Virus record (IMG/VR): IMGVR_UViG_3300026097_000026 | Span: 1-57,321 of that record | Length of the DNA: 57,321 nucleotides | From: a virus | Strand: one strand, 5' to 3' | Shown: positions 5,009 to 51,992 of the stretch, piece by piece | Position numbering within the stretch: position 1 is the stretch's first letter | How the letters are laid out: every line of letters begins with the position of its first letter | Notes under the pieces: generated by a model | What the model saw: the letters and a program-made list of their open reading frames with translations, nothing else | Databases searched by the model: none | What the model was told of the DNA's origin: nothing | Translations under genes and position numbers: made by a program

Positions 5009-6412
5009 ATGCTATTAGACATAACTCAAGAAGATAGACAATTATGGGTATCTTATTATAACTTAAATGGTGAAACTAGATTTAAAATATATGACTTAAA
5101 ACCTGATGATATGTTTAATTGGGAAGTCTGCTCAGAAGGTGATCCTAAAGCAGATCCAAAAATAACTAATTGGGATGGTAGACCGGTTAAAAAAGCTAGG
5201 TCTAGGTATTTAAATAAGTATCGTCAAATAGAATATTTATATTCATTACCTGAATCCGACAAGAAATTAATATATGGGTACTATTATCCTAAGACTTATT
5301 TTGTTGATATTGAAGTTGAGGTTACTGATTCATTCCCAGAACCTTCTAAAGCAGAAAACCCAGTAACAGCAATATGTATTGTTACTCCATCTAAGGAATG
5401 TATTGTTTTGGCTACTAAAGATTTAAGTAGAGAAAAGCAAAATAAAATACAAAAACAAATTGATGAACATTTTTCTAATTTAAATGAAACTTTTAGTTTT
5501 CATTTTAAACATTTTAAGTCAGAATATGATATGATGTATACCTTTCTTAAATCATTTGTTAGAAAAATGCCAATGATGACAGGATGGAATTATATTAATT
5601 TTGACTGGAAGTATATAATTACTCGATCAAGAAAACTTGGTATAGATCCTTCAATAGCATCGCCCATCGATCGTCTCTTTGGTAGGGATGAATTCCCATG
5701 CCATGTAGGTATAACCGATTATTTAGATATCTATGCAAAATGGGATAGAACTGTTGATATTAAAGAAGATTTTAAGTTAGATACAGTAGGTGAAGCTGTT
5801 GTTGGGGTTAAAAAGGTTAAATATGATGGCACTATCCAAGATATGTACGAAAGGGAGTATCCTAAATATATTTTTTATAATGCAATTGATACTGCATTGG
5901 TATATTTAATTCATAAAAAAATTAAAACAATGGAAATTGCTTTAACTATTGCTCATATGAGTGAAATTAGTATATTTAAAGCAAGTTCACCTGTTGCAAT
6001 TACTGAATCTTTATTAGCAAGAGAATTTTTATCATCAAACAGAGTTATGGCAAAAGATCCTAAAGCACCACCAGTAAAAAGACAACAATATGAAGGTGCT
6101 TTTGTTAAAGAACCTAAAACAGGTAAACACTCTGCTGTTGCTGCATTTGATTTTGCTTCACTATATCCTTCAATTATGAGACAATTAAATGTATCACCTG
6201 AGAGCTTTATAAAAAAGGTTGATTCTAACAAAAGAAAACAAGAAGAATCTGATGATAAAATTGTTTCAGTTACAGGAGCAGTATATTCTACTGAAAAATC
6301 AATTCTTAAAACAATATTAACAAGACTCTATTCACAACGACGTGAGTATAAGAAAACATCTTTTGAATTACAACAAAAAGCATATGACATGGAAAAAGAG
6401 CTTAAAGTCTAA
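5009..6412 (+). CDS. 43A: DNA polymerase family B, N-terminal half (gp43A): exonuclease and palm motif A
   Basis: The product has 467 residues. Exonuclease motifs are intact: Exo I FVDIEVE (Asp100, Glu102), Exo II WNYINFD (residues 193-199), Exo III YNAID (290-294). Polymerase motif A is present as DFASLYPSI (381-389), and the fingers entry SQRREYKK follows at 442-449. The frame then stops after a charged helical stretch, before motif B. Motifs B and C occur in a separate gene at 21635-22777, and the two products total 847 residues, close to T4 gp43 (898). The gene is followed by its own terminator (6462-6490). No intein residues are seen at the break, so the halves presumably assemble non-covalently. 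Split gene 43 is known in some Aeromonas T4-like phages; the distance here is unusual. Confidence 0.95.
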   Translation: MLLDITQEDRQLWVSYYNLNGETRFKIYDLKPDDMFNWEVCSEGDPKADPKITNWDGRPVKKARSRYLNKYRQIEYLYSLPESDKKLIYGYYYPKTYFVDIEVEVTDSFPEPSKAENPVTAICIVTPSKECIVLATKDLSREKQNKIQKQIDEHFSNLNETFSFHFKHFKSEYDMMYTFLKSFVRKMPMMTGWNYINFDWKYIITRSRKLGIDPSIASPIDRLFGRDEFPCHVGITDYLDIYAKWDRTVDIKEDFKLDTVGEAVVGVKKVKYDGTIQDMYEREYPKYIFYNAIDTALVYLIHKKIKTMEIALTIAHMSEISIFKASSPVAITESLLAREFLSSNRVMAKDPKAPPVKRQQYEGAFVKEPKTGKHSAVAAFDFASLYPSIMRQLNVSPESFIKKVDSNKRKQEESDDKIVSVTGAVYSTEKSILKTILTRLYSQRREYKKTSFELQQKAYDMEKELKV

Positions 6413-9722: not shown

Positions 9723-10223
9723 ATGAAACAGAAAACATCAGCAGGTTTAGCAATTATATATGATAATAAAATCCTACTAGCTCATCCTACTAATCGAAGA
9801 TGGTATAATTCATACGGCATTCCTAAAGGGGGCGTAGATAAAGGCGAAACTTATCTAGAAGCTGCAATACGAGAAACTAAAGAAGAAGTTGGGATTACGG
9901 TTCCTAGGAAAATAATAGATAAAAAAGAAAATACATTTTTTGTTTCATCTTCATCAAAAAAGAAAAAGAGTTATAATAAAATAGTATATTACTACATAGT
10001 TAAAATAGATAGCTTATCTCAATTAGGTATCAATGATTTAAGAATTTCTAAAAACCAATTACAGCTTGATGAGGTTGATTGGGCTGGTTTTTTAGATTAT
10101 GAAGAAGTACAAAAAAGAATAACACCATCACAAATACCATTGATAAATAATTTAATATCAAAGGGTCTATTAGAATCAACTGTATTAAATTATGAAAAAT
10201 TTACTGAATCCAAAAAGTCTTAA
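9723..10223 (+). CDS. Nudix hydrolase
   Basis: The product has 166 residues with a perfect Nudix box G-x5-E-x7-R-E-U-x-E-E-x-G-U: it begins GGVDKGE around residue 38 and ends RETKEEVGI. The N-terminal strand (SAGLAIIYDNKILLAHP) is also typical. Nudix enzymes hydrolyse nucleoside diphosphates linked to another group; in this operon a sugar-nucleotide or a dinucleotide substrate is plausible, but other phage Nudix proteins act on dinucleoside polyphosphates or NAD-capped RNA. It lies 11 bases after the cytidylyltransferase and overlaps the start of the dehydratase gene by 32 bases in another frame, suggesting translational coupling. Confidence 0.9.
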   Translation: MKQKTSAGLAIIYDNKILLAHPTNRRWYNSYGIPKGGVDKGETYLEAAIRETKEEVGITVPRKIIDKKENTFFVSSSSKKKKSYNKIVYYYIVKIDSLSQLGINDLRISKNQLQLDEVDWAGFLDYEEVQKRITPSQIPLINNLISKGLLESTVLNYEKFTESKKS

Positions 10224-11268
10224 TTATAACGACTTATTAAATCGTGAACCTATTTTAACTAATAAAGATACAATCCTTTCTTATATTAAAGGGAAGAGAG
10301 TATTGGTCACTGGTGGTTGTGGGTCTATTGGTAGTGAAATCGTTAGACAATTAATAAAGTTTGAAGCAAGTTCTATTATTGTATATGATAATGCTGAAAC
10401 ACCTCTTTTTTATTTAGAACAAGAAATTTCTAAGTTTAATAAAAATATTCATATAAGATATGTAATTGGTGACGTTAGGGATAAAAATAGACTTAATGAA
10501 ATTTTTGAAAGCTTTATGCCTAATGTAGTTTTTCATGCAGCTGCATATAAACATGTTCCTATGATGGAGAGTAATCCAATAGAGGCAATAAAAACTAATG
10601 TATTAGGTACAAAAAATATATCAGATGTTTCGTATCACTATGGTATAGAAAAATTTGTAATGGTATCAACTGATAAGGCGGTTAATCCTACTAATATAAT
10701 GGGTGCTACAAAAAGAATTGCTGAAATTTATACCCAGTACTTAAATCAAAAATCAAATACACAGTTTATTACAACCAGATTTGGAAACGTTTTAGGAAGT
10801 CAAGGATCAGTAATTCCAACATTCATAGACCAAATTAACACAGGTGGTCCTGTTAGTGTTACACATAAAAACGTTATTAGGTATTTTATGACTATCCAGG
10901 AAGCTTGTCAACTTGTATTACAAGCTTCCTCAATCGGCAAAGGTGGTGAAATTTATTTATTTGATATGGGTGAACCTGTAAAAATATTTGATTTGGCTAA
11001 AAAACTTATTTCTTTAGCAGATGATGATGTTGGTATTGAAATTATTGGGTTAAGGCCTGGTGAAAAATTATATGAAGAACTTTTATGTAATGGTGAAAAC
11101 ACAATCCCAACAAAAGATCCTAATATTATGAAGCTTAATCATACTGAATTAAACTTTAAATCATTAATACCTGAAATAGAAAAATTAGCTGAAATTAAAA
11201 ATAATGATTTTTATAAAATAATATCAATAGTTAAAAATATAGTTTCAGAATTTAAAAGAGAATCTTAG
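10192..11268 (+). CDS. UDP-GlcNAc 4,6-dehydratase-type (PglF/PseB/FlaA1-like) enzyme
   Basis: The product has 358 residues. The NAD(P)-binding Rossmann loop is TGGCGSIG (residues 40-47). The family-specific active site is ST-DK (Thr160, Asp161, Lys162) followed by Met170-x-x-x-Lys174, where most short-chain dehydrogenases have Tyr-x-x-x-Lys. The AAAYKHVPMMESNP segment is also diagnostic of the CapD/FlaA1/PglF/PseB branch. This is the soluble form without membrane helices. It would turn UDP-GlcNAc into a 4-keto-6-deoxy sugar. Downstream aminotransferase and left-handed-helix acetyltransferase favour the bacillosamine-type route over pseudaminic acid. The only usable ATG lies inside the Nudix gene. 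Confidence 0.9.
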   Translation: MKNLLNPKSLNYNDLLNREPILTNKDTILSYIKGKRVLVTGGCGSIGSEIVRQLIKFEASSIIVYDNAETPLFYLEQEISKFNKNIHIRYVIGDVRDKNRLNEIFESFMPNVVFHAAAYKHVPMMESNPIEAIKTNVLGTKNISDVSYHYGIEKFVMVSTDKAVNPTNIMGATKRIAEIYTQYLNQKSNTQFITTRFGNVLGSQGSVIPTFIDQINTGGPVSVTHKNVIRYFMTIQEACQLVLQASSIGKGGEIYLFDMGEPVKIFDLAKKLISLADDDVGIEIIGLRPGEKLYEELLCNGENTIPTKDPNIMKLNHTELNFKSLIPEIEKLAEIKNNDFYKIISIVKNIVSEFKRES

Positions 11269-11269
11269 T

Positions 11270-11839
11270 ATGAGTGAAGTAAATATATTTGGTAAAGGTG
11301 GTCATGCAAAAGTTATAAAATCAATAATAGAACATAATATAGATGAGGAACTTGGTACTATTATGGATGATAAGGATTATTTAAAAATTGACACTGGCCA
11401 TTGGATAATAGGAATAGGCGATAATACAATTAGAAAGGAAAGAGCTTATGGTATATTAAAGAATGAATCTTTTTATACTTTAATTAGTAAATCTTGTATA
11501 CTACCAAAAGATAATAATATAGGTAAAGGTTCTGTCATATTTCATGGTGCGATTATACAAACAAATACTAAAATAGGAAATCATTGTATAATTAATACTA
11601 ATGCTAATGTAGATCACGACTGTGTTATTGGAGATTTTGTACATATTGCACCAGGTTGTACTTTATGTGGAAATGTTTCTATAGGTGAAGGGACTTTTAT
11701 AGGGGCTGGTACAACTATTATACCTGGAATTACTATAGGTAAGAATTGTATAATTGGTGCTGGTTCAACTGTAGTTAGAGACATTCCTGATAATACTAAA
11801 GCCTTTGGTAACCCTTGTACATTTAAAGAATTATTATGA
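11270..11839 (+). CDS. Left-handed beta-helix acetyltransferase (PglD/NeuD-like)
   Basis: The product has 189 residues. The N-terminal part (VNIFGKGGHAKVIKSII) is the Rossmann-like nucleotide-sugar domain of PglD/NeuD proteins; from about residue 80 the sequence becomes hexapeptide repeats ([I/V]-G-x-x-x-x), forming a left-handed beta helix that binds acetyl-CoA. The catalytic His of PglD corresponds to His116 in NVDHDCVIGD. Length and domain order fit PglD, which N-acetylates the 4-amino group of a UDP-amino sugar. The start is 1 base after the dehydratase stop, and its stop overlaps the aminotransferase ATG (ATGA), placing all three in one coupled operon. Confidence 0.9.
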   Translation: MSEVNIFGKGGHAKVIKSIIEHNIDEELGTIMDDKDYLKIDTGHWIIGIGDNTIRKERAYGILKNESFYTLISKSCILPKDNNIGKGSVIFHGAIIQTNTKIGNHCIINTNANVDHDCVIGDFVHIAPGCTLCGNVSIGEGTFIGAGTTIIPGITIGKNCIIGAGSTVVRDIPDNTKAFGNPCTFKELL

Positions 11840-12948
11840 AAAGGATATATTTATCACCTCCACATATGTCAGGCGATGAGCTTAATTATATCAAAGAAGC
11901 ATTTGATCAAAACTGGGTAGCTCCAATTGGACCACAACTTAATAAGTTTGAAGAGTTGGTTAAGACTTATGTAGGATCAAATCATGCAGTGGCAGTTAAT
12001 TCTGGTACAAGTGCAATTCATTTAGCTCTTAAAGTTTTAGGTATTAAAGAAAATGATACTGTTTTATGCTCTACTATGACATTCATAGGATCAGTTAATC
12101 CTATTTTATATGAAAGAGCAAATCCAGTTTTTATTGATTCAGAAAGTAATACATGGAACATGGATCCGTATTTATTAGAACAATCAATTATTGATTTAAT
12201 AAAGAAAAATAATAAACCAAAGGCGATACTTCTAGTTCATGTTTTTGGTATGCCTTCTAATTTAACTACTATTAAATCAATATCTGATTTTTATGGTATT
12301 CCCTTAATTGAGGATGCAGCTGAATCTCTAGGATCTACTTACAAAAATAAACATACCGGTACATGGGGTGATATTGGCATTTATTCATTTAATGGAAATA
12401 AGCTCTTATCTACATCAGGTGGTGGTATTTTAGTAACTGATAATAAAACTCTTGCAACTAAAGCAAGATTTTTATCAACACAAGCTAAAGAAGATAAGCC
12501 ATATTATTATCATAAAGAATTAGGTTATAATTATAGAATGAGTAATATTGTAGCATCAATAGGAATTGGTCAAATTAATGTAATTGAAGAAAGAATAAAA
12601 AGGACACGAGAAATTCATAAAATATATAAGAGTGAATTAGGAGACTGGTTTGATTGTATTTTAACTGAAGGTAATACTATTAGAAGTAACTATTGGCTTA
12701 CATGTGGCATTTCTAATGAGCGTTTTGAGCCAAATAAAATGATTAATCATTTAAATAATAAAAATATAGAAGCTAGGAGAGTGTGGTACCCGATGCATAG
12801 GCAGCCTATTTTATTTAACAGAACTAAATATATAAATGGAACTAGTGATAATCTATTTAAATGTGGTATATGTTTACCTTCAGGTTCTTCGATGTCAAAT
12901 GATGATTTAGGTAGAGTAATAGATTCTTTTAAAAAATATAAAAAATAA
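11836..12948 (+). CDS. PLP-dependent sugar aminotransferase (DegT/DnrJ/EryC1 family, PglE-like)
   Basis: The product has 370 residues. Family marks are clear: NSGTSAIHLAL (residues 55-65) for the PLP phosphate, EDAAESLGS (159-167) for the ring, and SFNGNKLLSTSGGG with Lys189 as the Schiff-base lysine. In the DegT family this lysine usually sits in S-F-[NFH]-x-x-K, as here. The enzyme would transfer an amino group from glutamate to the 4-keto sugar made by the upstream dehydratase. Together with the acetyltransferase this gives UDP-2,4-diacetamido-2,4,6-trideoxyhexose (bacillosamine or an epimer). The N-terminal IYLSPPHMSGDE start is typical of PglE-like members. Confidence 0.92.
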   Translation: MKRIYLSPPHMSGDELNYIKEAFDQNWVAPIGPQLNKFEELVKTYVGSNHAVAVNSGTSAIHLALKVLGIKENDTVLCSTMTFIGSVNPILYERANPVFIDSESNTWNMDPYLLEQSIIDLIKKNNKPKAILLVHVFGMPSNLTTIKSISDFYGIPLIEDAAESLGSTYKNKHTGTWGDIGIYSFNGNKLLSTSGGGILVTDNKTLATKARFLSTQAKEDKPYYYHKELGYNYRMSNIVASIGIGQINVIEERIKRTREIHKIYKSELGDWFDCILTEGNTIRSNYWLTCGISNERFEPNKMINHLNNKNIEARRVWYPMHRQPILFNRTKYINGTSDNLFKCGICLPSGSSMSNDDLGRVIDSFKKYKK

Positions 12949-12949
12949 T

Positions 12950-13846
12950 ATGATATTTTCATACGAAGACTTTCTATTAAATGAAAGCGTCAATGATTCC
13001 AACTTTAGCATCCTATTAGAAGCTAATCTTAATAATAAAATTAACAAAAATATTAAGTTTGGTATTGTAATTCCTACTCACAAAATATCAGATGGTGCTG
13101 CGCAAACTGGTCGTAAAAACTTTATGAATACTCCTGATTTACTTAAGGCTTCATTAGGTTCAATTAGAGACCAGAAATATGACAATTATGTAGTTTATTT
13201 AGTTGGCGATGCTTATGATGGTGATGAAGAAATTAAAACTGTTATTAGTGAAGTTATGCCTCAGGGCAAATGTAAATTTCATAATATGAAAACACCAGGA
13301 GAAAGAAATAAAGGATATACAAAACAACAATTTAGGTATACTGCAGGTGCTGGCGCAATGAACAAGGGTTTAGAACTAGCAAAAAATGATGGTATTGACT
13401 ATATAGTTAGATTAGACCATGATGATAAATGGAAACCTAATCACCTTGAATTATTAGCAAAAGCATATACACAGTATCCTGAATTAGCTTATGTTTTTAC
13501 TAGAAGCAGAAAAAAAGTTGATGCTAATAATTCCTCAAAAAAGTTTATGTATCAACCTAGTGAAGAAAGACATATGACAAAAATTGAACCTAATAATTTA
13601 GGTTATACTCATGGTGATGTAAGTCATTCAGCTATGTCATGGAGACCTTCAATGACAGGGGATTTAAGATACAGAAATCCTGATCAACAAAGTAAAACTA
13701 ATCCTAAAATACCTTTAACAAAAACTATACAAGCTGATGTTGATATGTTTAAGAGAATGATGGATTCAATTAAAAAAGCAGGTCATAAATATATGTATAT
13801 ACCTAAATTAACAAGCTTTTATAGAAACCGAAAGGGAAAGTTTTAA
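12950..13846 (+). CDS. GT2-like glycosyltransferase with a capsid-targeting-like N-terminus
   Basis: The product has 298 residues. The catalytic GT-A domain begins near residue 36 (KFGIVIPTHK) and has the metal motif RLDHDDKW with Asp156, Asp158 and Asp159. Before it lies a 35-residue extension beginning MIFSYEDFLLNES, which resembles the T4 capsid targeting sequence (MKTYQEFIAEA) and the N-termini of three head-region proteins in this window. The extension contains two candidate prohead-protease sites, L-N-E|S (residues 10-13) and L-L-E|A (22-25). The gene starts 1 base after the aminotransferase, so it probably uses the amino sugar made by the operon. Packaging into the head is my inference. 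Confidence 0.75.
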   Translation: MIFSYEDFLLNESVNDSNFSILLEANLNNKINKNIKFGIVIPTHKISDGAAQTGRKNFMNTPDLLKASLGSIRDQKYDNYVVYLVGDAYDGDEEIKTVISEVMPQGKCKFHNMKTPGERNKGYTKQQFRYTAGAGAMNKGLELAKNDGIDYIVRLDHDDKWKPNHLELLAKAYTQYPELAYVFTRSRKKVDANNSSKKFMYQPSEERHMTKIEPNNLGYTHGDVSHSAMSWRPSMTGDLRYRNPDQQSKTNPKIPLTKTIQADVDMFKRMMDSIKKAGHKYMYIPKLTSFYRNRKGKF

Positions 13847-13893: not shown

Positions 13894-14070
13894 ATGGAAA
13901 CATTTAAAGAAATTAAATCATTAATAGAAAACACCGAGGAAGACATCGAAAAGTTTTATGTAAAGGGTAATAAGGCAGCTGCAGTAAGAATTCGTAAATC
14001 TATGCAAGAAATTAAAAACTTAGCTCAAAAACTTAGAGTACATGTACAAGAAACTAAAAATAATTTATAA
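13894..14070 (+). CDS. Bacteroidetes-type histone H1-like DNA-binding protein
   Basis: This short gene encodes 58 residues. The order METFKEIKSLIE, EKFYVKGNKAAAVRIRKSMQ and an ending KNLAQKLRVHVQETKNN matches the small histone H1-like proteins common in Bacteroidetes, whose hallmark is E-K-F/Y-x-K-G-N-K-A-A-x-x-R-x-R-K. Host homologues are nucleoid proteins; the phage copy could compact phage DNA, alter host chromatin or regulate transcription. It stands alone between two sugar operons, with its own A-rich leader (ATTAAATAAAAACATAAATC) and a strong terminator after it, so it is an independent cistron. It is the best single pointer to the host phylum. Confidence 0.85.
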   Translation: METFKEIKSLIENTEEDIEKFYVKGNKAAAVRIRKSMQEIKNLAQKLRVHVQETKNNL

Positions 14071-21634: not shown

Positions 21635-22777
21635 ATGACTGATAAGGAAAAGCAATTAAAAATTCAAGAAATAGAGGAAACTAAATACCAAGCTTCCCTT
21701 TTTATGAATAAAGAACAAGCTGTAAAATTAATGTTAAATAGTATTTACGGTGCATTTGGTAATCCTTATTTTTATTTCTTTAATGTAGATATTGCTGAAA
21801 CAATTACATTACAAGGTAAAGATGCAATATTATATACTGAAAAACTTCTTAATAAGTATTTCACTGAATTCTGGCATAAAGATTTAGATTTACATAAGAA
21901 GCTAGGAATAACCGTAACAGGTAGAATTGAAAATCCTGTGGGTATTTACATTGATACTGATTCCGTCTATGTTAAGTTTGAAGAAGTAATTAAAAAATCT
22001 GAAGGTTGGTCTGGTGATGAAAAGCAATTTATATTAAAGTTGTATGAATTAAGATTAAGAGATTATATTGAAAAAATCATGCAAAAATATGCTGATGATA
22101 ATAATGCTGAAAACTTCTTAAGCTTTGAATTAGAAAGTATTGCAAAAAATGCAATTTGGTTAGCCAAGAAAAAATATATGCAAAATATAGTTTGGAAGGA
22201 TCCTGACATTCACTATGATGATTTATCAAAAATTAGTGCAAAAGGATTTGAAATTATTCAATCATCAACCCCACTATTTGCAAGAGAAAAACTTAAAGAT
22301 TTATTAACATACATTTTTTCTGTTGAAAAATTAGATATGAAAGAGTTTTCTGCTCTTCTTAAAAAAATCAAAAGAGAATTTAGGTTAGCTAATGTTGATC
22401 AAATAAGTTTTTCAAAAAAGGTAAATAATTATCAAAAATATATTGTTAGTGATTATGATGCTTTTGAAATTGCATCTAGGTGCCCTATTGGTGTTAGGTC
22501 AGCGGGCTATCATAATTACCTTTTAAATAATTCAGGGCTCAAGGGTAAATATCAACCGCTAGGTAACGGTGAAAAACTTAAAATGTATTTTTCTGAGGAT
22601 ACTACTTGTGATGTATTTGCATATAGCCCTGGTGATCATCCTTACGAATTTGCACCTTCTGTTGATTATGATAGGCAGTTTGAAAAAACTATTTTGGATC
22701 CTATTAATAGAGTAATTGTTGCAATGGGATTTAAAGGCTTTAATCGTAATCTTATTTATACAACAAGTCTTTTTTAA
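21635..22777 (+). CDS. 43B: DNA polymerase family B, C-terminal half (gp43B): motifs B and C, thumb
   Basis: The product has 380 residues. It starts with a charged helix (MTDKEKQLKIQEIEE) and reaches motif B at KLMLNSIYGAFGN (residues 31-43) and motif C at YIDTDSVYV (105-113; Asp107 and Asp109 bind metal). The rest is the palm and thumb, ending in KTILDPINRVIVAMGF and a short Ser-Leu-Phe tail that resembles a clamp-binding peptide at the polymerase C-terminus. It complements 43A, which stops between motifs A and B. The gene has its own leader element and lies behind a terminator, so it is expressed separately from 43A. There is no intein sequence at its N-terminus. Confidence 0.95.
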   Translation: MTDKEKQLKIQEIEETKYQASLFMNKEQAVKLMLNSIYGAFGNPYFYFFNVDIAETITLQGKDAILYTEKLLNKYFTEFWHKDLDLHKKLGITVTGRIENPVGIYIDTDSVYVKFEEVIKKSEGWSGDEKQFILKLYELRLRDYIEKIMQKYADDNNAENFLSFELESIAKNAIWLAKKKYMQNIVWKDPDIHYDDLSKISAKGFEIIQSSTPLFAREKLKDLLTYIFSVEKLDMKEFSALLKKIKREFRLANVDQISFSKKVNNYQKYIVSDYDAFEIASRCPIGVRSAGYHNYLLNNSGLKGKYQPLGNGEKLKMYFSEDTTCDVFAYSPGDHPYEFAPSVDYDRQFEKTILDPINRVIVAMGFKGFNRNLIYTTSLF

Positions 22778-35069: not shown

Positions 35070-36839
35070 ATGTCATCAAACAAATTATTAATACTTGAAA
35101 GATCAAGTTCCGTTCTTGACAAAACAGTAGATTCTGATGGTAGTGTAGTCCTAGAAGGAGTATTTACTGAAATTGGAGTAAAAAACAAAAACAATAGAGT
35201 TTACGAAGAAAAGGAAGTGTTACCTCATATTAATGAGTTACAGAAAAAAGTCAAGACTTCAAAATTATTAGGTGAATTAGACCACCCAAAAGATTTTGAC
35301 ATTAGCCTTTCAAACGTTTCTCACGTTATTGAAGATTTATCATATGACCCAAGCACTAAACAAGTTATGGGTAGGATTAGACTATTAAATACTGATAAAG
35401 GTAAACAAGCAAAAGCTTTAGTTGAAGATGGAATACCTCTTCATATTTCAAGTAGAGCTGCAGGTAATGTTGACGAAAATGGTAATGTAAAGATTAAAAA
35501 ATTCTTTACTTATGATTTAGTAGCAGATCCTGGTTTTGAAAATGCTGAGCTTAGCAGGGTTAATGAATCATTTGGATATGAATCATCTGATTCTTTATTT
35601 ATTTATGAAATGAAAGACACAAAGGATAAAAAAGAAAATACATCAAAGATGGAAGAAAACAACAAATTTGTAACAGCTGAAGATTTTAATAAGTACACTG
35701 AATATCTTGCTAATGAAATGAAGTCAGTTAAAGAAGCTGCTAATTCATCAGAAAAAGAAACGGTTGAAAAGCTTGTTAATTATACTGAACATATAGCAGA
35801 AAAAGTTAATCAACTTACTGATTATACTGAATACTTATCAGAAAACTTAGATAAAAGTATTGCTCATACTGATTATGTAGTTGAAAACGTTAACCAAATC
35901 AAAAGCTATGCTAAATACTTAGCAGAAGAGTTAGATAATAGTATTAAATATACCGAACATGTTGCAGAAAAGGCTGATAAAGGAATTCAATATACTGAAC
36001 ACGTTGCAGAAAAGGCAGATCAAGGAATTGCTTATTCTGAACATTTAGCAGAAAAACTTAACCAAACAATTGGATATGCTGAGCATATTGCAGAAAAAGC
36101 TGACCAAGGAATTAGTTATACAGAACATGTTGCAGAAAAGGCAGATCAAGGAATTGCTTATTCTGAACATTTAGCAGAAAAACTTAACCAAAGTATTTCT
36201 TATTCTGAATACTTAAAAGAAGGTTTAGAAAAAGGTATATCATATACAGAATATGTAGCGGAAAAAATAAATGAAAGTACTTTTAATCCACTAACAGAAT
36301 CACAAGCCAACCCAGAATTGGATAAAATTAATTCATTATTAGAATCAGCTAAATCTAAATCAATTAAACCAAAAGGTGATATGCATTTTATGAATTTTTT
36401 AACTGAGTCTAAAAAGTCTGAATTTTCTTCTCTATCAGAAGAAAAGCAAAACCTAATTAAAGAAAAGATGAATAGTACTAGTGTAATGAGTACTATCCAA
36501 GCTGAGAATATTTGGGAATCTGCGTTTAAACCGCAAAGAACAAAATTAAACTTTATTGAGGATATGCCTGAAAAGTTTAAAGCTAAATGGGATAACCTTA
36601 CAGAATCAAAACAATCTCAAATTGTTGCAGAGTCTAAATTTTACCCATTAAACACACAATACCAAATTAATAACTTTTGGCAAACTAGAGATCTTAGACC
36701 ATCTAGTGTTGAATTAGAAAAAATTAACGAAAGTAAATCTGCAGGTGAATCAGCAAATAAATTAAATGAGTCTTCAATTAGTGAAGAGAGAAGATCCGAA
36801 ATTGTAAATCGTGTCAAGTTTAATTTAGGCAGGAAATAA
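35070..36839 (+). CDS. Prohead protease-scaffold fusion (gp21 + gp22-like)
   Basis: The product has 589 residues. Residues ~1-170 are a gp21-type prohead protease: LLGELDHP with His72, HISSRAAG with Ser127 or Ser128 as nucleophile, and VADPGFENAE at 151-160. T4 makes gp21 (about 212 residues) and scaffold gp22 from separate genes. Here residues ~200-589 form a long Glu/Lys-rich helical region like gp22. It includes twelve 14-residue repeats (238-405) with Tyr or His at the first position. After this come several candidate self-cleavage motifs (PLTESQ, FLTESK, NLTESK, KINESK, KLNESS). Fusing protease to scaffold guarantees one protease per scaffold chain. No stop codon or frameshift separates the parts. 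Confidence 0.85.
   Translation: MSSNKLLILERSSSVLDKTVDSDGSVVLEGVFTEIGVKNKNNRVYEEKEVLPHINELQKKVKTSKLLGELDHPKDFDISLSNVSHVIEDLSYDPSTKQVMGRIRLLNTDKGKQAKALVEDGIPLHISSRAAGNVDENGNVKIKKFFTYDLVADPGFENAELSRVNESFGYESSDSLFIYEMKDTKDKKENTSKMEENNKFVTAEDFNKYTEYLANEMKSVKEAANSSEKETVEKLVNYTEHIAEKVNQLTDYTEYLSENLDKSIAHTDYVVENVNQIKSYAKYLAEELDNSIKYTEHVAEKADKGIQYTEHVAEKADQGIAYSEHLAEKLNQTIGYAEHIAEKADQGISYTEHVAEKADQGIAYSEHLAEKLNQSISYSEYLKEGLEKGISYTEYVAEKINESTFNPLTESQANPELDKINSLLESAKSKSIKPKGDMHFMNFLTESKKSEFSSLSEEKQNLIKEKMNSTSVMSTIQAENIWESAFKPQRTKLNFIEDMPEKFKAKWDNLTESKQSQIVAESKFYPLNTQYQINNFWQTRDLRPSSVELEKINESKSAGESANKLNESSISEERRSEIVNRVKFNLGRK
35781..36284 (+). repeat. Twelve in-frame 42-bp repeats (14 residues each) in the scaffold part
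   Basis: Aromatic or His residues occur exactly every 14 positions (238, 252, 266 ... 392). A higher-order unit of 126 bp is visible: 64 bases at 36003-36066 recur identically at 36129-36192. Consensus unit begins Y-T/S-E-H-V/L-A-E-K. Fourteen residues are two coiled-coil heptads, so the array predicts a straight helical rod of about 25 nm (168 residues at 0.15 nm). Confidence 0.9.
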
Positions 36840-36873: not shown

Positions 36874-37299
36874 ATGAAGTATGTAAAATTATTTGAGCAA
36901 TTCATATTAGAAGAAAGCTCTTTAGAAGAAAAAGCTAATGGTAAATCTATTAAGGAAGGGTTAGACTTTACCTTTGCTGATTTAGATGCTTTTGCCACCG
37001 AAATAAAATCTGACTTTAAAACCTTAGGAAAGTATATGAAATACATAGGTGCAAGAATACCTGCTGATGCATACCTTGCTGGAACAGAGCGTGATTTAAG
37101 AGATGCTGGATTTACGTTTATAGAAAGTGGAAAACCTGAACGTGTAAACGTAGAAGTTAATGCAGGAATGACTGGTACTGAAGTTGAAATGGGAACTCTT
37201 AATGGTGAAAAGGCCTTTGGTATAAATGATGGTCAAGATGTATTTATATATGTTGGACCTAAATCAAAAGACAAATTTAATCCATTAGAAGAATATTAA
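36874..37299 (+). CDS. Head-region protein with capsid-targeting-like N-terminus
   Basis: The product has 141 residues. The first 20 (beginning MKYVKLFEQFILEES) resemble the T4 internal-protein targeting sequence MKTYQEFIAEA and contain a possible protease site at L-E-E or I-L-E. The rest has an amphipathic helix and a beta-rich C-terminal half (ERVNVEVNAGMTG, EKAFGINDGQDVFIYVG). The position between scaffold and major capsid genes fits a minor core or internal protein. T4 has gp67/68 near this place but I see no direct similarity. The gene is followed by a terminator with a UUCG loop. Confidence 0.6.
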   Translation: MKYVKLFEQFILEESSLEEKANGKSIKEGLDFTFADLDAFATEIKSDFKTLGKYMKYIGARIPADAYLAGTERDLRDAGFTFIESGKPERVNVEVNAGMTGTEVEMGTLNGEKAFGINDGQDVFIYVGPKSKDKFNPLEEY

Positions 37300-37485: not shown

Positions 37486-39213
37486 ATGTATTCTAATCAA
37501 TTAATTAATGAGGCTGAGGTTCGCCAAACATGGGCACCTATCATTGAGGAAGCAACTGGTGTAAAAGAAAATGAAAAGCTTTCTTGGATGTCAAAATATT
37601 GTCATTACCATAACCTTAATGAAAGTGTATATAATACGGTACACCTTAACCCTAACATGAACGTACAAGGTATGGGAGCAACTTCGTTCCCAGGAGATCC
37701 TGGTTCAATGAACAATTTTTCTAGCCAAACGGCTGGATCTGGTGATAAACCAATGTCACTTTTACCACTTGCTATGCAAGTTGCAGCTCAAACAGTAGGT
37801 TTAGATTTAGTACCTGTTGTACCAATGAGTGGTCCTATGGGAGTTTTAACTTACCTAGACTTTGTATATGGTGGTGGTCGTGATAGCAATGCTGGTGGAA
37901 AAGTTACAAAGAGCGCCCCTCTTTTAATTAAAGCCAATGTTGAATTAAGCGCAACTGGTGATGAATTTGCTGCTAACGAAGTATTCTTCGTAGGTACTGG
38001 TGATTATGGAGCATATGAGTTAACTTACGTAGGTAAGTCTCGTATTGATGGTTACCCAATCTTCCGTGTAAGAGGTAAATCAACAGATGTTGCACAAGGT
38101 GCTAATGCTTATGCACAAGGCGAAGAAGGTTATGAAGCAATCTATGAAGCAATTGTTGCTGATGGAAGTGCTACTGATCTTTACTCTGATGATGCACTTA
38201 ACACTTCAGTAGGTACATTTACTACTGCTGCTGAATATGTTAAAGCATTAGAAGATCATATTCCAGGTTTCTCAGGAAATGCGTTTGAATCAAACAACCC
38301 AACTACTGGTGCTTTAACTGCATCTGGTATTGATAGTACTGATCCATACGAAAGAGGAACAGGTGAATCAACACCAGATAACCTATTAGGTTTATCTTTA
38401 TTCAACAAATCAGTATCTGCTAAAACTTATCAAGTTGCTGCAGCAGTTACTCGTGAGCAAGTACAAGACCTTAAACAATTTGGTATTGACGCAGTTGCTC
38501 AAGTAGAGGCGGTATTAGTTAATGAATTAACACAAGACATTAACAAACTTATTCTTGATCGTATTTTCCGTAATGGTGCTACTAATGCTAACAACGTAAA
38601 TACTGTAGATGGAATTAATCTTTCTGCATATTTTGTTACTTCTGCAGGTAATACTACAGTTGATTTAGGTCCAGGTAATGATAGTAATGCTAATATTACT
38701 TTACCAGTTAATGGAACACTAGTTAACACAGGTGGAGAAACACAAGGATCGTTACAGCGTAGAATTCTTACTAAAATTCTTGCTGCGACTAACTTAATCT
38801 CTACTCGTGGTCGTAGAGGGCCAGCTACATTCGCAGTATGCTCTGGTCAAATCGGTACAGCATTACAAGATATCGCAGGATTTGTACCTTACCCATTAGC
38901 AAATACAGTTAATCAAGCAGGTGGATCATTATTCCCAATTGGTTCTGTTGCAGGTGTAACGGTTTATGTTGATCCTAACATGTCATGGAATGACTTAAGA
39001 GTTGCTATTGGTCGTAAAGGTGATGGTAATTCTCCTGGATTAGTATTTATGCCTTACTTAATGGCTGAATCTGTTGAAACAATCGCTGAAGGAACTATGG
39101 CTCCTAAAATCGCGGTTAAATCAAGATTTGCATTAGTAGACGCTGGATTCCATCCAGAAACAATGTACTACACTCTTGCATTTAAATTAGGTACTGGTGT
39201 AAACCTTATCTAA
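37486..39213 (+). CDS. 23: Major capsid protein (gp23-like)
   Basis: The product has 575 residues (T4 gp23: 521). T4-like signposts: an N-terminal targeting-like region (MYSNQLINEAEVRQTWAPIIEEATG), PLAMQVAAQTVGLDLVPVVPMSGPMG (the conserved gp23 segment), VAAAVTREQVQDLKQFGIDAVAQVEAVLVNELTQDINK, GRRGPATFAVCSGQIGTALQDI, and a C-terminal GFHPETMYYTLAFKLGTGVNL. An I-N-E|A site at residues 8-10 and later Glu sites are candidates for prohead-protease trimming. It uses more C-ending and Arg CGT codons than neighbours, as expected for a highly expressed gene. Confidence 0.97.
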   Translation: MYSNQLINEAEVRQTWAPIIEEATGVKENEKLSWMSKYCHYHNLNESVYNTVHLNPNMNVQGMGATSFPGDPGSMNNFSSQTAGSGDKPMSLLPLAMQVAAQTVGLDLVPVVPMSGPMGVLTYLDFVYGGGRDSNAGGKVTKSAPLLIKANVELSATGDEFAANEVFFVGTGDYGAYELTYVGKSRIDGYPIFRVRGKSTDVAQGANAYAQGEEGYEAIYEAIVADGSATDLYSDDALNTSVGTFTTAAEYVKALEDHIPGFSGNAFESNNPTTGALTASGIDSTDPYERGTGESTPDNLLGLSLFNKSVSAKTYQVAAAVTREQVQDLKQFGIDAVAQVEAVLVNELTQDINKLILDRIFRNGATNANNVNTVDGINLSAYFVTSAGNTTVDLGPGNDSNANITLPVNGTLVNTGGETQGSLQRRILTKILAATNLISTRGRRGPATFAVCSGQIGTALQDIAGFVPYPLANTVNQAGGSLFPIGSVAGVTVYVDPNMSWNDLRVAIGRKGDGNSPGLVFMPYLMAESVETIAEGTMAPKIAVKSRFALVDAGFHPETMYYTLAFKLGTGVNLI

Positions 39214-39312: not shown

Positions 39313-39855
39313 ATGAATTTATTATCTTATGAATCTTATACTACTCTAAATGAATCAATCAATTCTTTTGATTCTGAAATTGAAAAAGTATTAACTGAAA
39401 GCATAGGTGCTGCTTTAGGTAGTCCTGTAAAATTTACTAAAATTAAAAATAACCTTAAAAAATATCAAAAATCTTTAGTAAACCAATCTATTAATGATCT
39501 GGACTTAGAAAAGAAAAAGTCAGCTGGTAATTTAGACCCAGATAAAAAAGCTACTCTTGCGGCTGCAAATAAACAAAAAAATCAAGCACTTAAGGATCAA
39601 GCCGATGCAATAAGTGCTAGGATTGATCAATTAGCTACATCTGATGGATTAAAAAAGGTTGCTGCTGTAGGTAAAAATCGTGCAAAATTAGCAGCAGCAG
39701 AAACTGCAGCAAAAACTGCTGATGGTGAAGAAGCTAAAGCATTAAACTTAAAAATACAAAAACTAAACTCCAAAATATCTAAAGATGAAAAAGAGCTTAA
39801 AGATTATGCTAAAGCTAACTCAGATGAAAAACCTAAAGAACAAAAAGTAGACTAA
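39313..39855 (+). CDS. Candidate internal head protein with capsid-targeting-like N-terminus
   Basis: The product has 180 residues. The start MNLLSYESYTTLNES resembles T4 capsid targeting sequences; candidate protease sites L-N-E|S and L-T-E|S occur in the first 32 residues. The remainder is an Ala/Lys/Asp-rich helical, low-complexity protein (KKSAGNLDPDKKATLAAAN, AKLAAAETAAKTADGEE), basic overall and predicted to be extended. This is the composition of T4 internal proteins or DNA-condensing peptides that enter the cell with DNA. The leader is late-like (AATATATAAACTATAAA). It follows the capsid gene after a terminator, so it is a separate late transcript. Confidence 0.6.
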   Translation: MNLLSYESYTTLNESINSFDSEIEKVLTESIGAALGSPVKFTKIKNNLKKYQKSLVNQSINDLDLEKKKSAGNLDPDKKATLAAANKQKNQALKDQADAISARIDQLATSDGLKKVAAVGKNRAKLAAAETAAKTADGEEAKALNLKIQKLNSKISKDEKELKDYAKANSDEKPKEQKVD

Positions 39856-39871
39856 ATAAAAAAATAATAAT

Positions 39872-40192
39872 ATGAAGCATTTACAAACATTTAATGAATC
39901 AGTTGAATCACAAATCAATGAAGCAAAAGGTGATATCATTGTTAAAAAATTAAATAATAAAATATTAGATACTATATTTGATAAGAGTCAAAATGTAAAA
40001 GCAGGGTATGATCCATCTGAAAAGGCAATAGAAATTTCAATGGATAATGATTTTATATTGACAATAGATGAATTAAAGAAATTAAATCAATTTGGGTTAT
40101 TGTATGAAACTGAGCAATTAGATATAGATTATGAAGATGAAGGCCCTGATGATATTAAATATATGAACATTTATTATTTTAAAATAAATTAA
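39872..40192 (+). CDS. Small protein with capsid-targeting-like N-terminus
   Basis: The product has 106 residues. The first 20 (MKHLQTFNESVESQINEAK) contain the motif N-E-S and a candidate protease site I-N-E|A. The mature part would be a small alpha/beta domain ending in acidic residues (DIDYEDEGPDDIKYMNIYYF). It lies 16 bases after the previous gene and touches the next start (TAA directly followed by ATG). I propose an internal head protein by resemblance and context; no family is recognised. Confidence 0.5.
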   Translation: MKHLQTFNESVESQINEAKGDIIVKKLNNKILDTIFDKSQNVKAGYDPSEKAIEISMDNDFILTIDELKKLNQFGLLYETEQLDIDYEDEGPDDIKYMNIYYFKIN

Positions 40193-40684
40193 ATGTACAA
40201 GGTTAGAAAAATCAATTTTGGGTGGTACAGAAGGCGGCATGGTATTCTTTTAGAAAACTTGCCGCCTTTAAAGAAAAAGTTACTCATAGATCATGATCAT
40301 ATGAAATGGTTAAATTCCGATGTTCAGGCATTTGAGGTTATTTTTAAAGTTGAAGATCACAACGACCATGAAAGAAAAACTCGTAAGGTTTTTTGGAATC
40401 CTTTTAGAGAAACTTTTACAAAAATTAAACAAATAGAAAAAGATTCAAATCTAGTAGATTGGAACTGTGCAATATGTAAAGAACCAATTAAGTCAAGAAT
40501 GAGCTTTAAAAAGATTGAAAACTTTGTTTGTAATAAATGTAGAGAATCTCATAATTCAAAAAATAAACAAATTGACCAAAGAATTATAGATTCTACTAAT
40601 AAGTTTATGAAACATTGTAAAGGTCTATTAAGAAGGGAGCAACGTGAATTTATAAATTATGCAAAAAAATCATCAAAGAGATAA
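40193..40684 (+). CDS. Zinc-finger protein, function unknown
   Basis: The product has 163 residues. A C-x-x-C ... C-x-x-C pair (Cys92, Cys95, Cys113, Cys116; CAIC and CNKC) forms a treble-clef-like zinc site. The N-terminal part has RKINFGWYRRRHG and HDHMKWL, rich in aromatic and basic residues; the C-terminus is basic and helical (GLLRREQREFINYAKKSSKR). DNA or RNA binding is plausible. The gene starts on the base after the previous stop. Its 3' end overlaps the 3' end of the only minus-strand gene by 12 bases, so the two genes converge without a visible terminator between them. Confidence 0.6.
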   Translation: MYKVRKINFGWYRRRHGILLENLPPLKKKLLIDHDHMKWLNSDVQAFEVIFKVEDHNDHERKTRKVFWNPFRETFTKIKQIEKDSNLVDWNCAICKEPIKSRMSFKKIENFVCNKCRESHNSKNKQIDQRIIDSTNKFMKHCKGLLRREQREFINYAKKSSKR

Positions 40685-41458
40685 ACATTTTTCTAATGAT
40701 ATTTTAGTAAAACATGTAAGAGTACTTCTTTCTGATGCATTATATACTTTAATACCTTTCTTTTTTAATTCTTCTGCAATATGTGGAAATGAAACAACAA
40801 ACCTTTTTTCATAAATATGTTTGCTAGTAGGATTAACTGGGTATCCATCATGAAAATGTGTTTTATTTCCATTTCCTCCCATATCAAAACCTAACAAGAC
40901 TATTCTAGTTGCTCCTAGGTGGTATGCTAAATTTATTGCTGCATATCCACTATTATCACCATGTGCTAATGATCTATTATCAGTTTCCAAACCGTGTCTA
41001 ATACCTTTTTTTAATAGTCTTACGTCATTAGTATAAGGTGCACCTGAATTAATTGTATATTTTACTGCATTTGATGCATCAATATCTTTTTTATACCATC
41101 TATAAAACCTAGCATCAGTCCAATATATTACTTGTGCAGTTGGTATTGACATAAATGACTTATTGATTGCTATTACTGATTTATTGGATAATGAATTCCA
41201 ATTAAAACCTTGTAATGATGGACCTCCACCTATTACATATACAGTTTTTCCTTTAAATATTGGAATAACAGAAGAGTATGTTAAGTTAGATGGGTTTCTA
41301 CGAGGCCTATTCCTCTTTAAATTATTAGGTGATATAACTGTTGGTGTTTTAGTAGTTTTTCTTTTAGCCTTCTCTAAACTTCTTATTCCTCGTCTCCTTA
41401 CTCTTGATTTTGGAATCTTTTTAGGATTAGTCATTATTTTTTTTATTGTGTTTGCCAT
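40673..41458 (-). CDS. DUF115/MptE-like Rossmann protein (only minus-strand gene)
   Basis: The product has 261 residues. After a ~55-residue very basic, Pro-containing N-terminal tail (KSRVRRRGIRSLEKAKRK) it has KTVYVIGGGPSLQGFNW, SVIAINKSFMSIP and QVIYWTDARFYRWY, then TRIVLLGFDMGG. This G-G-G-P-S-L Rossmann-like pattern is shared by DUF115/MptE-like proteins and by a group of phage proteins of unclear role, often near sugar-modification genes. It is transcribed opposite to everything else, diverging from gp44 (64-base intergenic region) and converging on the zinc-finger gene, which suggests acquisition and independent control. The basic tail may bind nucleic acid. Confidence 0.7.
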   Translation of the reverse strand: MANTIKKIMTNPKKIPKSRVRRRGIRSLEKAKRKTTKTPTVISPNNLKRNRPRRNPSNLTYSSVIPIFKGKTVYVIGGGPSLQGFNWNSLSNKSVIAINKSFMSIPTAQVIYWTDARFYRWYKKDIDASNAVKYTINSGAPYTNDVRLLKKGIRHGLETDNRSLAHGDNSGYAAINLAYHLGATRIVLLGFDMGGNGNKTHFHDGYPVNPTSKHIYEKRFVVSFPHIAEELKKKGIKVYNASERSTLTCFTKISLEKCLSL

Positions 41459-48455: not shown

Positions 48456-49022
48456 ATGCAAAAACCACAAGCAAATAGTGCAGGATTTGAGCTAACAATT
48501 AAAAAAGGAGCTGAATCTTTTTCATGGTCTTCTAAAAAAGTAGAGCAGTTAATGGCTGCAATAGAAGATGGGTATAAACCAAAATCTACTCCGTTTTATG
48601 AAGGTAATACAAATTTACGAAAAGGAAATATAGTTTTTGAGTATACTGACCATGAATTAAGAGAAATACAAAAATGTGCAAGGGATATAGTTTACTTTGC
48701 AAATAATTATTGTACTGTTATGACTGATGAGGGGTTGCAGACAATAACCCTTAGGCCTTATCAAGAGGATATGTTAAGACAGTTTCAAGATGAGAGATTT
48801 AATATTTGTCTAGCTAGTAGGCAGGTTGGAAAATGTCTTACATTTTCCACCGAGATTATAGTTTTAAAGAACGGTAAAGGAATTAAAACTACAATAGGAA
48901 ATTTATATTTTGAAACACTTAAACTACAAAGACCACTTACTTTAATTGAAAAAATTAAATGGTCTTTATGGAAAGCTTATACTTGGTTAGATTCATTTGA
49001 CAGAAAGCAAGAAGAGTCTTAA
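48456..49022 (+). CDS. 17: Terminase large subunit N-terminal part fused to N-intein
   Basis: The product has 188 residues. Residues 1-126 are the N-terminus of a gp17-type TerL; the ATPase Walker A begins at LASRQVGK (119-126) and stops at the catalytic Lys. Cys127 then starts an intein N-fragment (CLTFSTEIIVLKNGKGIK), with the block A pattern C-L-x-x-x-T. About 30 further residues (KLQRPLTLIEKIKWSLWKAYTWLDSFDRK) are amphipathic and could dock with the C-fragment. The frame then ends with TAA. Without splicing this polypeptide has no Walker B and no nuclease and cannot package DNA. The C-half is encoded at 50115-51992. Confidence 0.95.
   Translation: MQKPQANSAGFELTIKKGAESFSWSSKKVEQLMAAIEDGYKPKSTPFYEGNTNLRKGNIVFEYTDHELREIQKCARDIVYFANNYCTVMTDEGLQTITLRPYQEDMLRQFQDERFNICLASRQVGKCLTFSTEIIVLKNGKGIKTTIGNLYFETLKLQRPLTLIEKIKWSLWKAYTWLDSFDRKQEES
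48834..49019 (+). other. N-intein (62 residues, split from C-intein by a homing endonuclease gene)
   Basis: Runs from Cys127 to the stop. Only intein block A lies here; block B is found in the C-fragment, so this is an atypically early split. It starts exactly after the Walker A lysine. Confidence 0.9.
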
Positions 49023-49045
49023 ATATATAATAAAATAAAGATTAT

Positions 49046-50122
49046 ATGGAAAAGATTTGTAAACAGTGCCAAGAAAAATATCAAGCTAAAAATAATAGAT
49101 CAACTTATTGTAGTACTAAATGTAAAAATAATGCATCTTTTATTAGAAACCAAGAAAAACTTAAACAAGGTATCGAAGGTGATGACTATGTAATTGATAA
49201 GTGGAATGGTTATGCAACACCAAGAATTTACGGAGCATGGATGAGATCTATGCACCCAGGTAAAACTACACAAGATTATCTTAATGAATTTCCAGGTGCT
49301 CAACTTGCATGTAAAAAAGATAAACAAGCCACTTCTAAAAATTCAGGTATTCATATGAAGGATCCTAAATACAGAAAAATGGCTAGTAATGCAATTAAAG
49401 GCAAAAGAAATCCTAATCATAAATCAAAAACTACATTACAAGAAAGACAAAAAAGAAGTCCATTTTCAGAAAATTTTAAAAACCATAAAAACTTAAATGA
49501 TCGTGATACTTTTTTAGAATCTATCGATTGGTCAAAAAGAATAACAAGTACACAATTGGAATGGTGGTTAAACAAAGGTTATTCTAAAGAAGATGCTAGA
49601 GAAAAATTAAAAGAAAGACAAACTACCTTTACATTAGAAAAATGTATACAAAAATGGGGTAAAGAAAAAGGTATTCAAAAATTTAAGGAAAGACAAGAAA
49701 GGTGGAAAAAATCTTTATACGAAACTTTTGAAAGGGAAGGTGATGGTCGTAGCCCTAGTAGTAAGTTTGCAAATTCAATTATAAAAGAACTTTGTGAATA
49801 TTTAAAAATAGAAATACCACAAAAAGAAAAATGGATTAAAAATAAGGAAACACAAAAAGCATATTCATATGATTTTACATATAATAAAAAGATCATAGAA
49901 TTTAATGGCGACTATTGGCATTGTAACCCTAAACTATATGAGGCAGATTATTTTAACAAAAATAAAAGTTTAACTGCTACTGAGATTTGGGAATATGATA
50001 AAGAAAAAGTTAAAACTGCTGAAATGTATGGATATCAAGTCTTAATTGTTTGGGAGCATGATTGGTTAAATAATCATGAAAGAGTCTTAGACAATTGTAA
50101 AAAATTTATAGATAATGATTAA
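49046..50122 (+). CDS. EDxHD/Vsr-like homing endonuclease between terminase halves
   Basis: The product has 358 residues. It begins with a zinc site (Cys5-x-x-Cys8 ... Cys22-x-x-x-Cys26, CKQCQEKY and YCSTKC), then basic DNA-binding regions (SPFSENFKNHKN), and ends with a Vsr-like nuclease: Asp276 in YSYDFTYN, Glu285 in KIIEFNGDYWH (His292), TATEIWEYDKEK, YGYQVLIVWEHDW. The E-x-N-G-x-x-W-H and W-E-x-D pattern is that of the EDxHD homing endonucleases found between halves of fractured, split-intein genes in marine phage DNA. It lies 23 bases after the N-half and overlaps the C-half by 8. It is expected to cut intein-less terminase genes and spread the insertion. Confidence 0.88.
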   Translation: MEKICKQCQEKYQAKNNRSTYCSTKCKNNASFIRNQEKLKQGIEGDDYVIDKWNGYATPRIYGAWMRSMHPGKTTQDYLNEFPGAQLACKKDKQATSKNSGIHMKDPKYRKMASNAIKGKRNPNHKSKTTLQERQKRSPFSENFKNHKNLNDRDTFLESIDWSKRITSTQLEWWLNKGYSKEDAREKLKERQTTFTLEKCIQKWGKEKGIQKFKERQERWKKSLYETFEREGDGRSPSSKFANSIIKELCEYLKIEIPQKEKWIKNKETQKAYSYDFTYNKKIIEFNGDYWHCNPKLYEADYFNKNKSLTATEIWEYDKEKVKTAEMYGYQVLIVWEHDWLNNHERVLDNCKKFIDND

Positions 50123-50552
50123 TTTACTAAAAGGTATAATTCTGATACTCATTGGATTTATAGAAACTATTGAATATCGTTCAGTTGATTTAGATCAAAA
50201 TGATATTAATAAAAAGATTATGAATACAATTAATATTTATGATGTTAGAATTGATACTGATACCGGTTGGGAAAGAATTACACATGTTCATAAAACACAA
50301 CCTTATGATATTTGGAAAGTTAAGCTTAATAATGGCATGTATCTTGAAGGGGCTGATAATCATATCTTATTTACTGAAAAATTAAATGAAGTATTTATAC
50401 GAGATTTAATTGTTGGTGATTATATTATGACCCGAGAAGGGCCTGTTGAAGTTACACAATTAATTAAATATAAGCAAAGTGTTTCTATGTTTGATGTAAC
50501 TGTGGATAACCCTAATCATAGATACTGGAGCAATGATATACTTTCACATAAC
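50115..50552 (+). other. C-intein (146 residues) with blocks B, F and G
   Basis: Ends with Asn146 before extein Thr147. Hydrophobic N-terminal stretch (MINLLKGIILILIGFIE) may pair with the amphipathic tail of the N-intein rather than form a membrane segment. Confidence 0.9.
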
Positions 50553-51992
50553 ACGATAGGATCTTCTATTTTTATTGCATGGTATTCTCTTTTTAATTTT
50601 GATAAAAATTCTTTAATACTGTCAAATAAAGGTAGTACAACATCTGAAATTATTGATAAGGGTAAAACAATATTAGAACATTTACCTTTCTTTTTAAAGC
50701 CTGGTATTTTAAAATGGGATGTATTTAACACTAAATTTGATAATGGTTGTAGGATCATTGGACAAACCACAACAAAGAAAGCTGCAATTGGTTTTACTAT
50801 TCACCTATTGTTTATGGATGAGTTTGCCCATATACCAAATAATTTTGTTAACACTTTTTACGAAAACGTATATCCTACTGTTTCTGCTTCTAAAAACTCA
50901 AAAGTAATTATAACCAGTACACCAAATGGTTTTAATAAATTTTATGATATCTATTCTGCTGCTGAAGCAGGTAGGAGTGAATATGTACCTTTTAAAATTG
51001 ATTGGTGGGATGTGCCTGGACGAGATGAAGAGTGGATGAAAAATGAAGTTGCTAATTTAGGTGATGAAGAAGCATTTAATAGACAATATGGTAATCAGTT
51101 TATAGCAAGTTCTTCTCTATTATTAAGTGCTGATAGTTTAAAGAAGTTAGCAATAAACCAAAAGGAATTTATTTTTTATGACATACCAGAATTAGAAGAC
51201 ATTGGTTTAGATTATAGTGGTTTAAAATGGGATCCTAATTTTGATGTTGAAAATGATCCTGCTGATGACTCAAACTATTGGGTATTTTCAGTTGATTTAG
51301 CAGAAGGAAATGGTGGGGATTATTCTATCATTAATATGTTTAAAATTGAGGTAATGGATTCATCTGATTTTAAAAAAATAATTACACCAGGTGCTTTTGT
51401 TGACTTTTTTAGAATAAGACAAATAGGTGTTTTTAGAAGTAATCAGCACACTATTGAGGATTTTGCAAAAATACTCTATACAATAGGATTTGATATGTTT
51501 TATTCTGAAAATTTAAAACTTATTATAGAATGGAATATGTTTGGATCTGAATTAATAAAAAGATTAGAAACTGTATTTCCTAGAAGAAATAATTTTGATG
51601 AAGAAACTATTGTTAAATTTAAGCATCGTGTTGATGCAAGATCTAAAGATTTTGGCTTAAAGGTAAAGAAAGATAATAAACCTATATTTTGCCAAAATTT
51701 TAAAAAATATGTATCACAAAATAAAATAATACTAAACGAAAAGAAAACTGTTAAAGAAGCAGGTACATTTGGAAAATTACCAAATGGATCATATGCAGGG
51801 CAGTTAGGTCATGATGATCTTATTATGACAAGTATAAATTCATCTGAATTTTTTACCACTACCGACTTTTCTGAATTTGTTGAAGAATTATATGATTTAA
51901 TTGATCCGGATATACAATTTAAAATTGATGAAATTCTTGAAAGGGATTCAAAGGGTGGGGATCTCAATTATGATATATACGATTTGGTATAA
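50115..51992 (+). CDS. 17: C-intein fused to terminase large subunit C-terminal part
   Basis: The product has 625 residues. Residues 1-146 are the intein C-fragment: block B at GADNHILF (79-86), strands through GDYIMTREGPVEV, block F VSMFDVTVDNPNHRYW (123-138), and block G ending ILSHN with His145-Asn146. Thr147 is the +1 residue. Extein then continues TIGSSIFIAWYSLFNF, so splicing gives ...RQVGKTIGSS..., a complete Walker A. Walker B is LLFMDEFAHI, coupling motif TSTPNG, nuclease motif I VFSVDLAEGNGGDYS, and a late DLIMTS. The 479 residues plus 126 from the N-half make about 605 (T4 gp17: 610). The start overlaps the endonuclease gene. Confidence 0.95.
   Translation: MINLLKGIILILIGFIETIEYRSVDLDQNDINKKIMNTINIYDVRIDTDTGWERITHVHKTQPYDIWKVKLNNGMYLEGADNHILFTEKLNEVFIRDLIVGDYIMTREGPVEVTQLIKYKQSVSMFDVTVDNPNHRYWSNDILSHNTIGSSIFIAWYSLFNFDKNSLILSNKGSTTSEIIDKGKTILEHLPFFLKPGILKWDVFNTKFDNGCRIIGQTTTKKAAIGFTIHLLFMDEFAHIPNNFVNTFYENVYPTVSASKNSKVIITSTPNGFNKFYDIYSAAEAGRSEYVPFKIDWWDVPGRDEEWMKNEVANLGDEEAFNRQYGNQFIASSSLLLSADSLKKLAINQKEFIFYDIPELEDIGLDYSGLKWDPNFDVENDPADDSNYWVFSVDLAEGNGGDYSIINMFKIEVMDSSDFKKIITPGAFVDFFRIRQIGVFRSNQHTIEDFAKILYTIGFDMFYSENLKLIIEWNMFGSELIKRLETVFPRRNNFDEETIVKFKHRVDARSKDFGLKVKKDNKPIFCQNFKKYVSQNKIILNEKKTVKEAGTFGKLPNGSYAGQLGHDDLIMTSINSSEFFTTTDFSEFVEELYDLIDPDIQFKIDEILERDSKGGDLNYDIYDLV

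Follow-up and report, generated by a model that had tools for sequence, protein, structure and literature searches.

A T4-like phage glycosyltransferase with a capsid-targeting-like leader: a candidate enzyme of the phage head

Is a phage glycosyltransferase whose N-terminus resembles the capsid-targeting sequences (CTS) of T4 internal proteins carried inside the phage head? The question is raised by an ORF of 298 aa (12950-13846, plus strand; start MIFSYEDFLLNESVNDSNFSILLEANLNNKINKNIKFGIVIPTHK) in a viral record of 57,321 bp and 61 genes, which was analyzed in full and is called the window here. The coordinates and N-terminus given in the initial annotation, which had proposed a possible packaged enzyme, proved correct. 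In a profile search, PF00535 (Glycos_transf_2) covered residues 60-228 (E 5.6e-12; 46.4 bits compared to a cut-off of 23.3). The structure model was predicted to adopt a GT-A fold, with SpsA as the nearest structure in a fold search. An alignment of homologues showed that D156 and D159 of the DxD-like motif DHDD are conserved and that H157 and D158 are nearly so. As judged from sequence and model, the product is a GT2-family glycosyltransferase of GT-A fold (hereafter GT), and catalysis on a nucleotide sugar is predicted. A scan of viral contigs for GT homologues returned 36 loci.

Residues 1-35 of GT (12950-13054, plus strand) form a CTS-like leader, with a candidate cleavage point after E12 (base 12985) and a weaker one after E24 (base 13021). 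All close relatives of GT carry a leader of about 35 residues that ends at the onset of the first beta-strand. The leader is absent from four divergent relatives (L035-L038), whose start coincides with that strand. The leader is a separable extension of GT. No gp23 or scaffold gene was seen on the contigs with leaderless enzymes (G011-G014), which are fragments. Within the ORF, there is no second in-frame ATG upstream of the GT domain. The pN and pS of the leader were 0.26 and 0.62 (107 homologue pairs, with synonymous sites near saturation), a constraint similar to that of the GT domain. Given this purifying selection and the lack of a later start, the leader is translated. Confidence in the structure model is low over the leader (block means of 44-62), which has helices at residues 5-13 and 17-23, and exceeds 85 for most of the GT domain.

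In T4, residues 4 and 7 of the CTS MKTYQEFIAE are the main determinants of targeting, and those of processing are residues 8 and 10 (PMC9026906). A loose N-terminal regex was rejected as the main test, as it also matched a family of 58-aa histone H1-like proteins, and was replaced by a T4-rule motif whose spacer of 0-4 was picked after inspection. The T4-rule motif leaves out the H1-like family and matches 3 of the 61 window genes (GT, 36874 and 39313), compared to 0.4 expected (P=0.009). The pattern aromatic-x-x-aromatic...[LIV]xE, including the aromatic positions equivalent to T4 residues 4 and 7, is retained in 24/24 leadered homologues, which are orthologues and not independent observations. 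The residue that follows [LIV]xE in these homologues is S, K, N or A, a P1' spectrum much like that of fam8, the putative core protein encoded at 39313-39855.

Two profiles were used to assess the resemblance. Profile A was trained only on the N-termini of 34 fam8 orthologues, with GT left out. It ranked GT first among the N-termini of approximately 320 other families and scored the window GT at 13.2 bits, a score higher than that of any of nearly 5,000 internal windows; in T4 it placed ipIII first and ipII third of 67 proteins. In the reciprocal search, a GT-leader profile found fam8 as the best other family and retrieved the T4 internal proteins poorly. Profile B was built from 48 CTS-like N-termini of G002, G003 and LR756500, without T4, fam8 or GT. 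Of the 67 T4 proteins, its three best-scoring were ipII, ipIII and ipI in that order, and in the window it placed 36874 first, 39872 second and GT third (10.6 bits). GT homologues with the short start MISFDEY or MITFEEY scored approximately zero with profile B, and the resemblance of the leader to CTS is therefore uneven. The initial annotation had drawn its T4 likeness from MKTYQEFIAEA; the general likeness is borne out for the window GT by the motif and both profiles, but that peptide is the N-terminus of IPII and IPIII and does not fit IPI, which starts MKTFKEFTSTTT. Its likeness to three other N-termini of the window holds by motif for 36874 and 39313, whereas 39872 is recovered by profile B and lacks the aromatic pair. 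Of the interpretation in the initial annotation, the sequence-level part, a CTS-like GT N-terminus that includes a candidate site for the prohead protease, thus has good support; processing, packaging and injection of the enzyme, or its action on the capsid, are predictions.

The head genes of the window provide a local context for the leader. A gp23-type major capsid protein (37486-39213, plus strand; PF07068) and an S77 prohead protease fused to a scaffold (35070-36839, plus strand; PF03420, E 2.8e-14; phrog_207, E 3.4e-40) are both encoded, from which it follows that a T4-type head is present. Residues 209-405 of the protease-scaffold protein (35694-36284, plus strand) hold about thirteen 14-residue repeats with CTS-like units such as YTEHVAEKADQGIA and YSEYLKEGLEKGIS. 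The repeat pattern in this clade is Y[ST]E[YH][LVI]AE[NK]..., for which the T4 CTS counterpart is YQEFIAE. There were 11 matches to [FY]xx[FYH][LVI]xE in the window repeats, and shuffled versions of this region gave 0.08 on average. The consensus of 409 repeat units from 42 relatives, Y-[SA]-E-Y-L-A-E-N, is near the T4 sequence Y-Q-E-F-I-A-E, and T4 gp22 has two near-matches with one extra residue. With profile B, 31 of the 32 internal windows that scored at least as high as GT fell in the protease-scaffold family. A small protein with the CTS-like start MKYVKLFEQFILEE (36874-37299, plus strand), which has the top profile-B score in the window, is encoded between the scaffold and capsid genes. 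Just downstream of the capsid gene lies fam8 (plus strand; leader SYESYTTLNES), called a putative prohead core or internal protein from its position and tag, and then a small protein starting MKHLQTFNESVESQINEA (39872-40192, plus strand), which is CTS-like by profile B. A sialyltransferase-like protein with an Arg/Lys-rich N-terminus (40673-41458, minus strand; phrog_4603, E 1.4e-41) is encoded on the opposite strand just past the head genes. The large terminase (48456-51992) appears by eye as two ORFs resembling N- and C-terminal intein halves (SRQVGK/C ... HN/T), and a nuclease-like ORF (49046-50122) sits between them, an arrangement that resembles a split-intein fractured gene. The DNA polymerase also seems to be split over two distant ORFs (5009-6412 and 21635-22777).

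The candidate cleavage sites in the leader can be compared to the capsid protein of the same clade. The likely capsid cleavage site, after E46 in the window protein, reads YCHYHNLNE|S in 47/49 proteins and YCHFHNLSE|S in the other 2; the known cleavage point of T4 gp23, at residue 65, reads FGSFLTE|A (PMC9958956). LNE|S at E12 of GT is identical to this invariant site of the clade. As had been noted from the window alone, LNE|S and LLE|A (E24) both precede the catalytic domain, and they are the sole [LI]xE[AGS] sites in the 298 aa. As candidate prohead-protease sites the two fared unequally: LNE|S is supported as a candidate, but homologues mostly read LLE|K at the second position, so conservation there is limited to LxE and the second site is weak.

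Similar N-termini recur across the clade. By the T4-rule motif, CTS-like starts were found in 14/192 genes of G002, 11/162 of G003 and 27/665 of LR756500, where approximately 1.1, 1.2 and 3.9 would be expected. Six genomes together had 59/1272, compared to 0/186 in three non-T4 Bacteroidetes phages, and the 70-79 kb contigs had only 2-3 each. No CTS matches were seen in the regions examined of the isolates PTm1 and MaF61. In the larger relatives, the tag bearers are mostly unrelated to each other; their matches, several of them weak, include ATP-grasp ligases, an AAA ATPase, a DUF2201 metallopeptidase/VWA protein and a Dps-like DUF5856 protein. CTS-like starts on proteins resembling ATP-grasp ligases were seen in three genomes (L126:5153-6103, L169:16154-17632 and L171:2704-3702). 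In G002 (L127:2324-8219) and G003 (L134:1939-7234), about seven neighboring and mostly unrelated genes carry tags of the MKHIKLFEEFLNEA type. These runs include AAA, Dps-like and DUF5824 proteins and are possibly a packaged-protein island. The GT homologue of LR756500 has only a degenerate leader, although LR756500 uses the tag widely. Among the best capsid-protein matches in the phage collection were LR756500 (59%), Prevotella Lak phages and Tenacibaculum phages, an indication that the window virus infects Bacteroidetes. No fam8 homologue was found in that collection. The clade is known from metagenomic contigs, and no isolate or virion proteome of it was found.

The surroundings of the GT gene bear on what else the leader might be. 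The GT start lies 2 bases past the last stop of three sugar-nucleotide genes (10192-12948, plus strand) for a dehydratase, a NeuD-type acetyltransferase and a DegT aminotransferase, possibly a phage UDP-diamino-sugar (bacillosamine-type) pathway. Coupling to an amino-sugar pathway was rejected as an explanation because these genes are not linked to GT in some relatives. In nearly all relatives, GT is followed by a gene for a 58-aa histone H1-like protein (13894-14070 in the window; HctA family, weak match). Like the internal-protein genes of T4, the GT gene is located away from the head cluster, and the T4-style late promoter TATAAATA showed no enrichment (24 observed compared to 22.9 expected).

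This setting would suit a leader that belongs to the enzyme and takes no part in head assembly, as a two-helix extension for oligomerization or for contact with a membrane or a partner in the infected cell. Placement in a sugar-nucleotide operon, the nearly constant H1-like neighbor as a possible partner, and the better conservation of the second half of the leader (NFEILLEKNL..EID) compared to the first are consistent with such an extension. However, the leader is not confidently packed on the GT domain in the model, and its pattern is common to fam8, the scaffold repeats and the capsid cleavage site of the same genomes; this explanation is considered unlikely. Slightly less probable still is that the leader targets the prohead for access to a substrate, so that GT would glycosylate capsid or core proteins during assembly and delivery to the host would be unnecessary. 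The sugar-nucleotide genes immediately upstream would fit this role, and capsid glycosylation of another phage has been inferred from its encoded glycosyltransferases in a phage announcement (PMC11256854). However, these genes are not beside GT in several relatives, and because many unrelated proteins share the tag, a role as cargo fits better than one substrate. It is quite improbable that GT is an ordinary enzyme for surface or DNA/sugar modification with a chance N-terminal resemblance, a reading compatible with its gene neighborhood and with the weak matches that a loose regex does yield, since the strict motif excludes the H1-like family, the window GT comes out near the top with each of two independent profiles, and the motif is kept in every leadered homologue.

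The favored explanation is that GT, a GT-A glycosyltransferase with a CTS-type leader, is an enzyme of the head interior similar to T4 Alt, and the combined motif, profile and repeat evidence makes this probable. Counting against it are the near-zero profile-B scores of the short-start homologues, the poor retrieval of T4 internal proteins by the GT-leader profile, LLE|K at the second site in most relatives, the degenerate leader in LR756500, the position of the gene in a sugar-nucleotide operon, and the spacer picked after inspection. Because the leader resembles a unit of the scaffold repeat encoded by the same phage, GT would be expected to enter the prohead core. By imitating one such unit, the leader would bring the enzyme into the core during head assembly, and this recruitment is the most strongly indicated part of the scheme. 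The S77 prohead protease would then trim GT at LNE|S, for which the chances appear only a little better than even, and the trimmed enzyme would remain in the head among the packaged DNA. The likeliest later role, for which the packaged T4 ADP-ribosyltransferase Alt and the internal proteins are the model, would be ejection with the DNA, after which GT would modify a host target with sugar or counter a host defense. Action in the new host is proposed tentatively, and action on the capsid is thought unlikely.

More broadly, CTS may work by imitating the scaffold repeat and being cut like one, an idea for which no statement was found in the literature searched (most subscription journals were not covered). 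Under a speculative extension of this idea, the CTS of the clade would be a detached copy of the scaffold repeat, borne by internal proteins and enzymes (GT, ATP-grasp, AAA/VWA and Dps-like) that are loaded and injected as cargo, with GT as the first glycosyltransferase to be so packaged; such mimicry would also account for the way in which the T4 CTS finds the prohead core. In agreement with the initial annotation, the searchable literature yielded no account of a glycosyltransferase packaged by a phage. If true, such a protein would add a new kind of enzyme to those delivered by virions, of which T4 Alt is one. The resemblance to the scaffold repeat offers a concrete mechanism for CTS recruitment that is open to testing, and by means of the tag, candidate head-packaged proteins of uncultivated T4-like phages could be catalogued from sequence.

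Packaging by means of a CTS has long been known, as has a packaged enzyme, T4 Alt (PMC9026906), and what is new here is GT as cargo, and possibly mechanistic insight, for a targeting system already described. As in T4 IPI, IPII and IPIII, an N-terminal aromatic-x-x-aromatic precedes [LI]xE at a prohead-protease-type site, and the tag is common to otherwise unrelated proteins, with profile B finding the internal proteins first in T4. Unlike the T4 proteins, the GT leader has approximately 35 residues rather than 10-19 and a spacer of one residue before LxE, and the cargo is an enzyme domain whose packaging is predicted. In the giant phages SPN3US and phiKZ, ejection proteins carry N-terminal propeptides that a gp21-like protease removes by cutting after xxE (PMC5694885). 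These are head proteins that lose a propeptide after xxE, as GT would, but their propeptides are mostly longer than 100 residues and the cleavage motif is AxE or SxE. GT shares its GT-A fold and DxD-like DHDD motif with SpsA-type GT2 enzymes, from which it differs in having only 15% identity and an N-terminal leader. In the case of T4 Alt, an ADP-ribosyltransferase, the fold and chemistry differ from those of GT; like Alt, GT would be a head-packaged enzyme that moves a group derived from a sugar nucleotide (PMC9026906).
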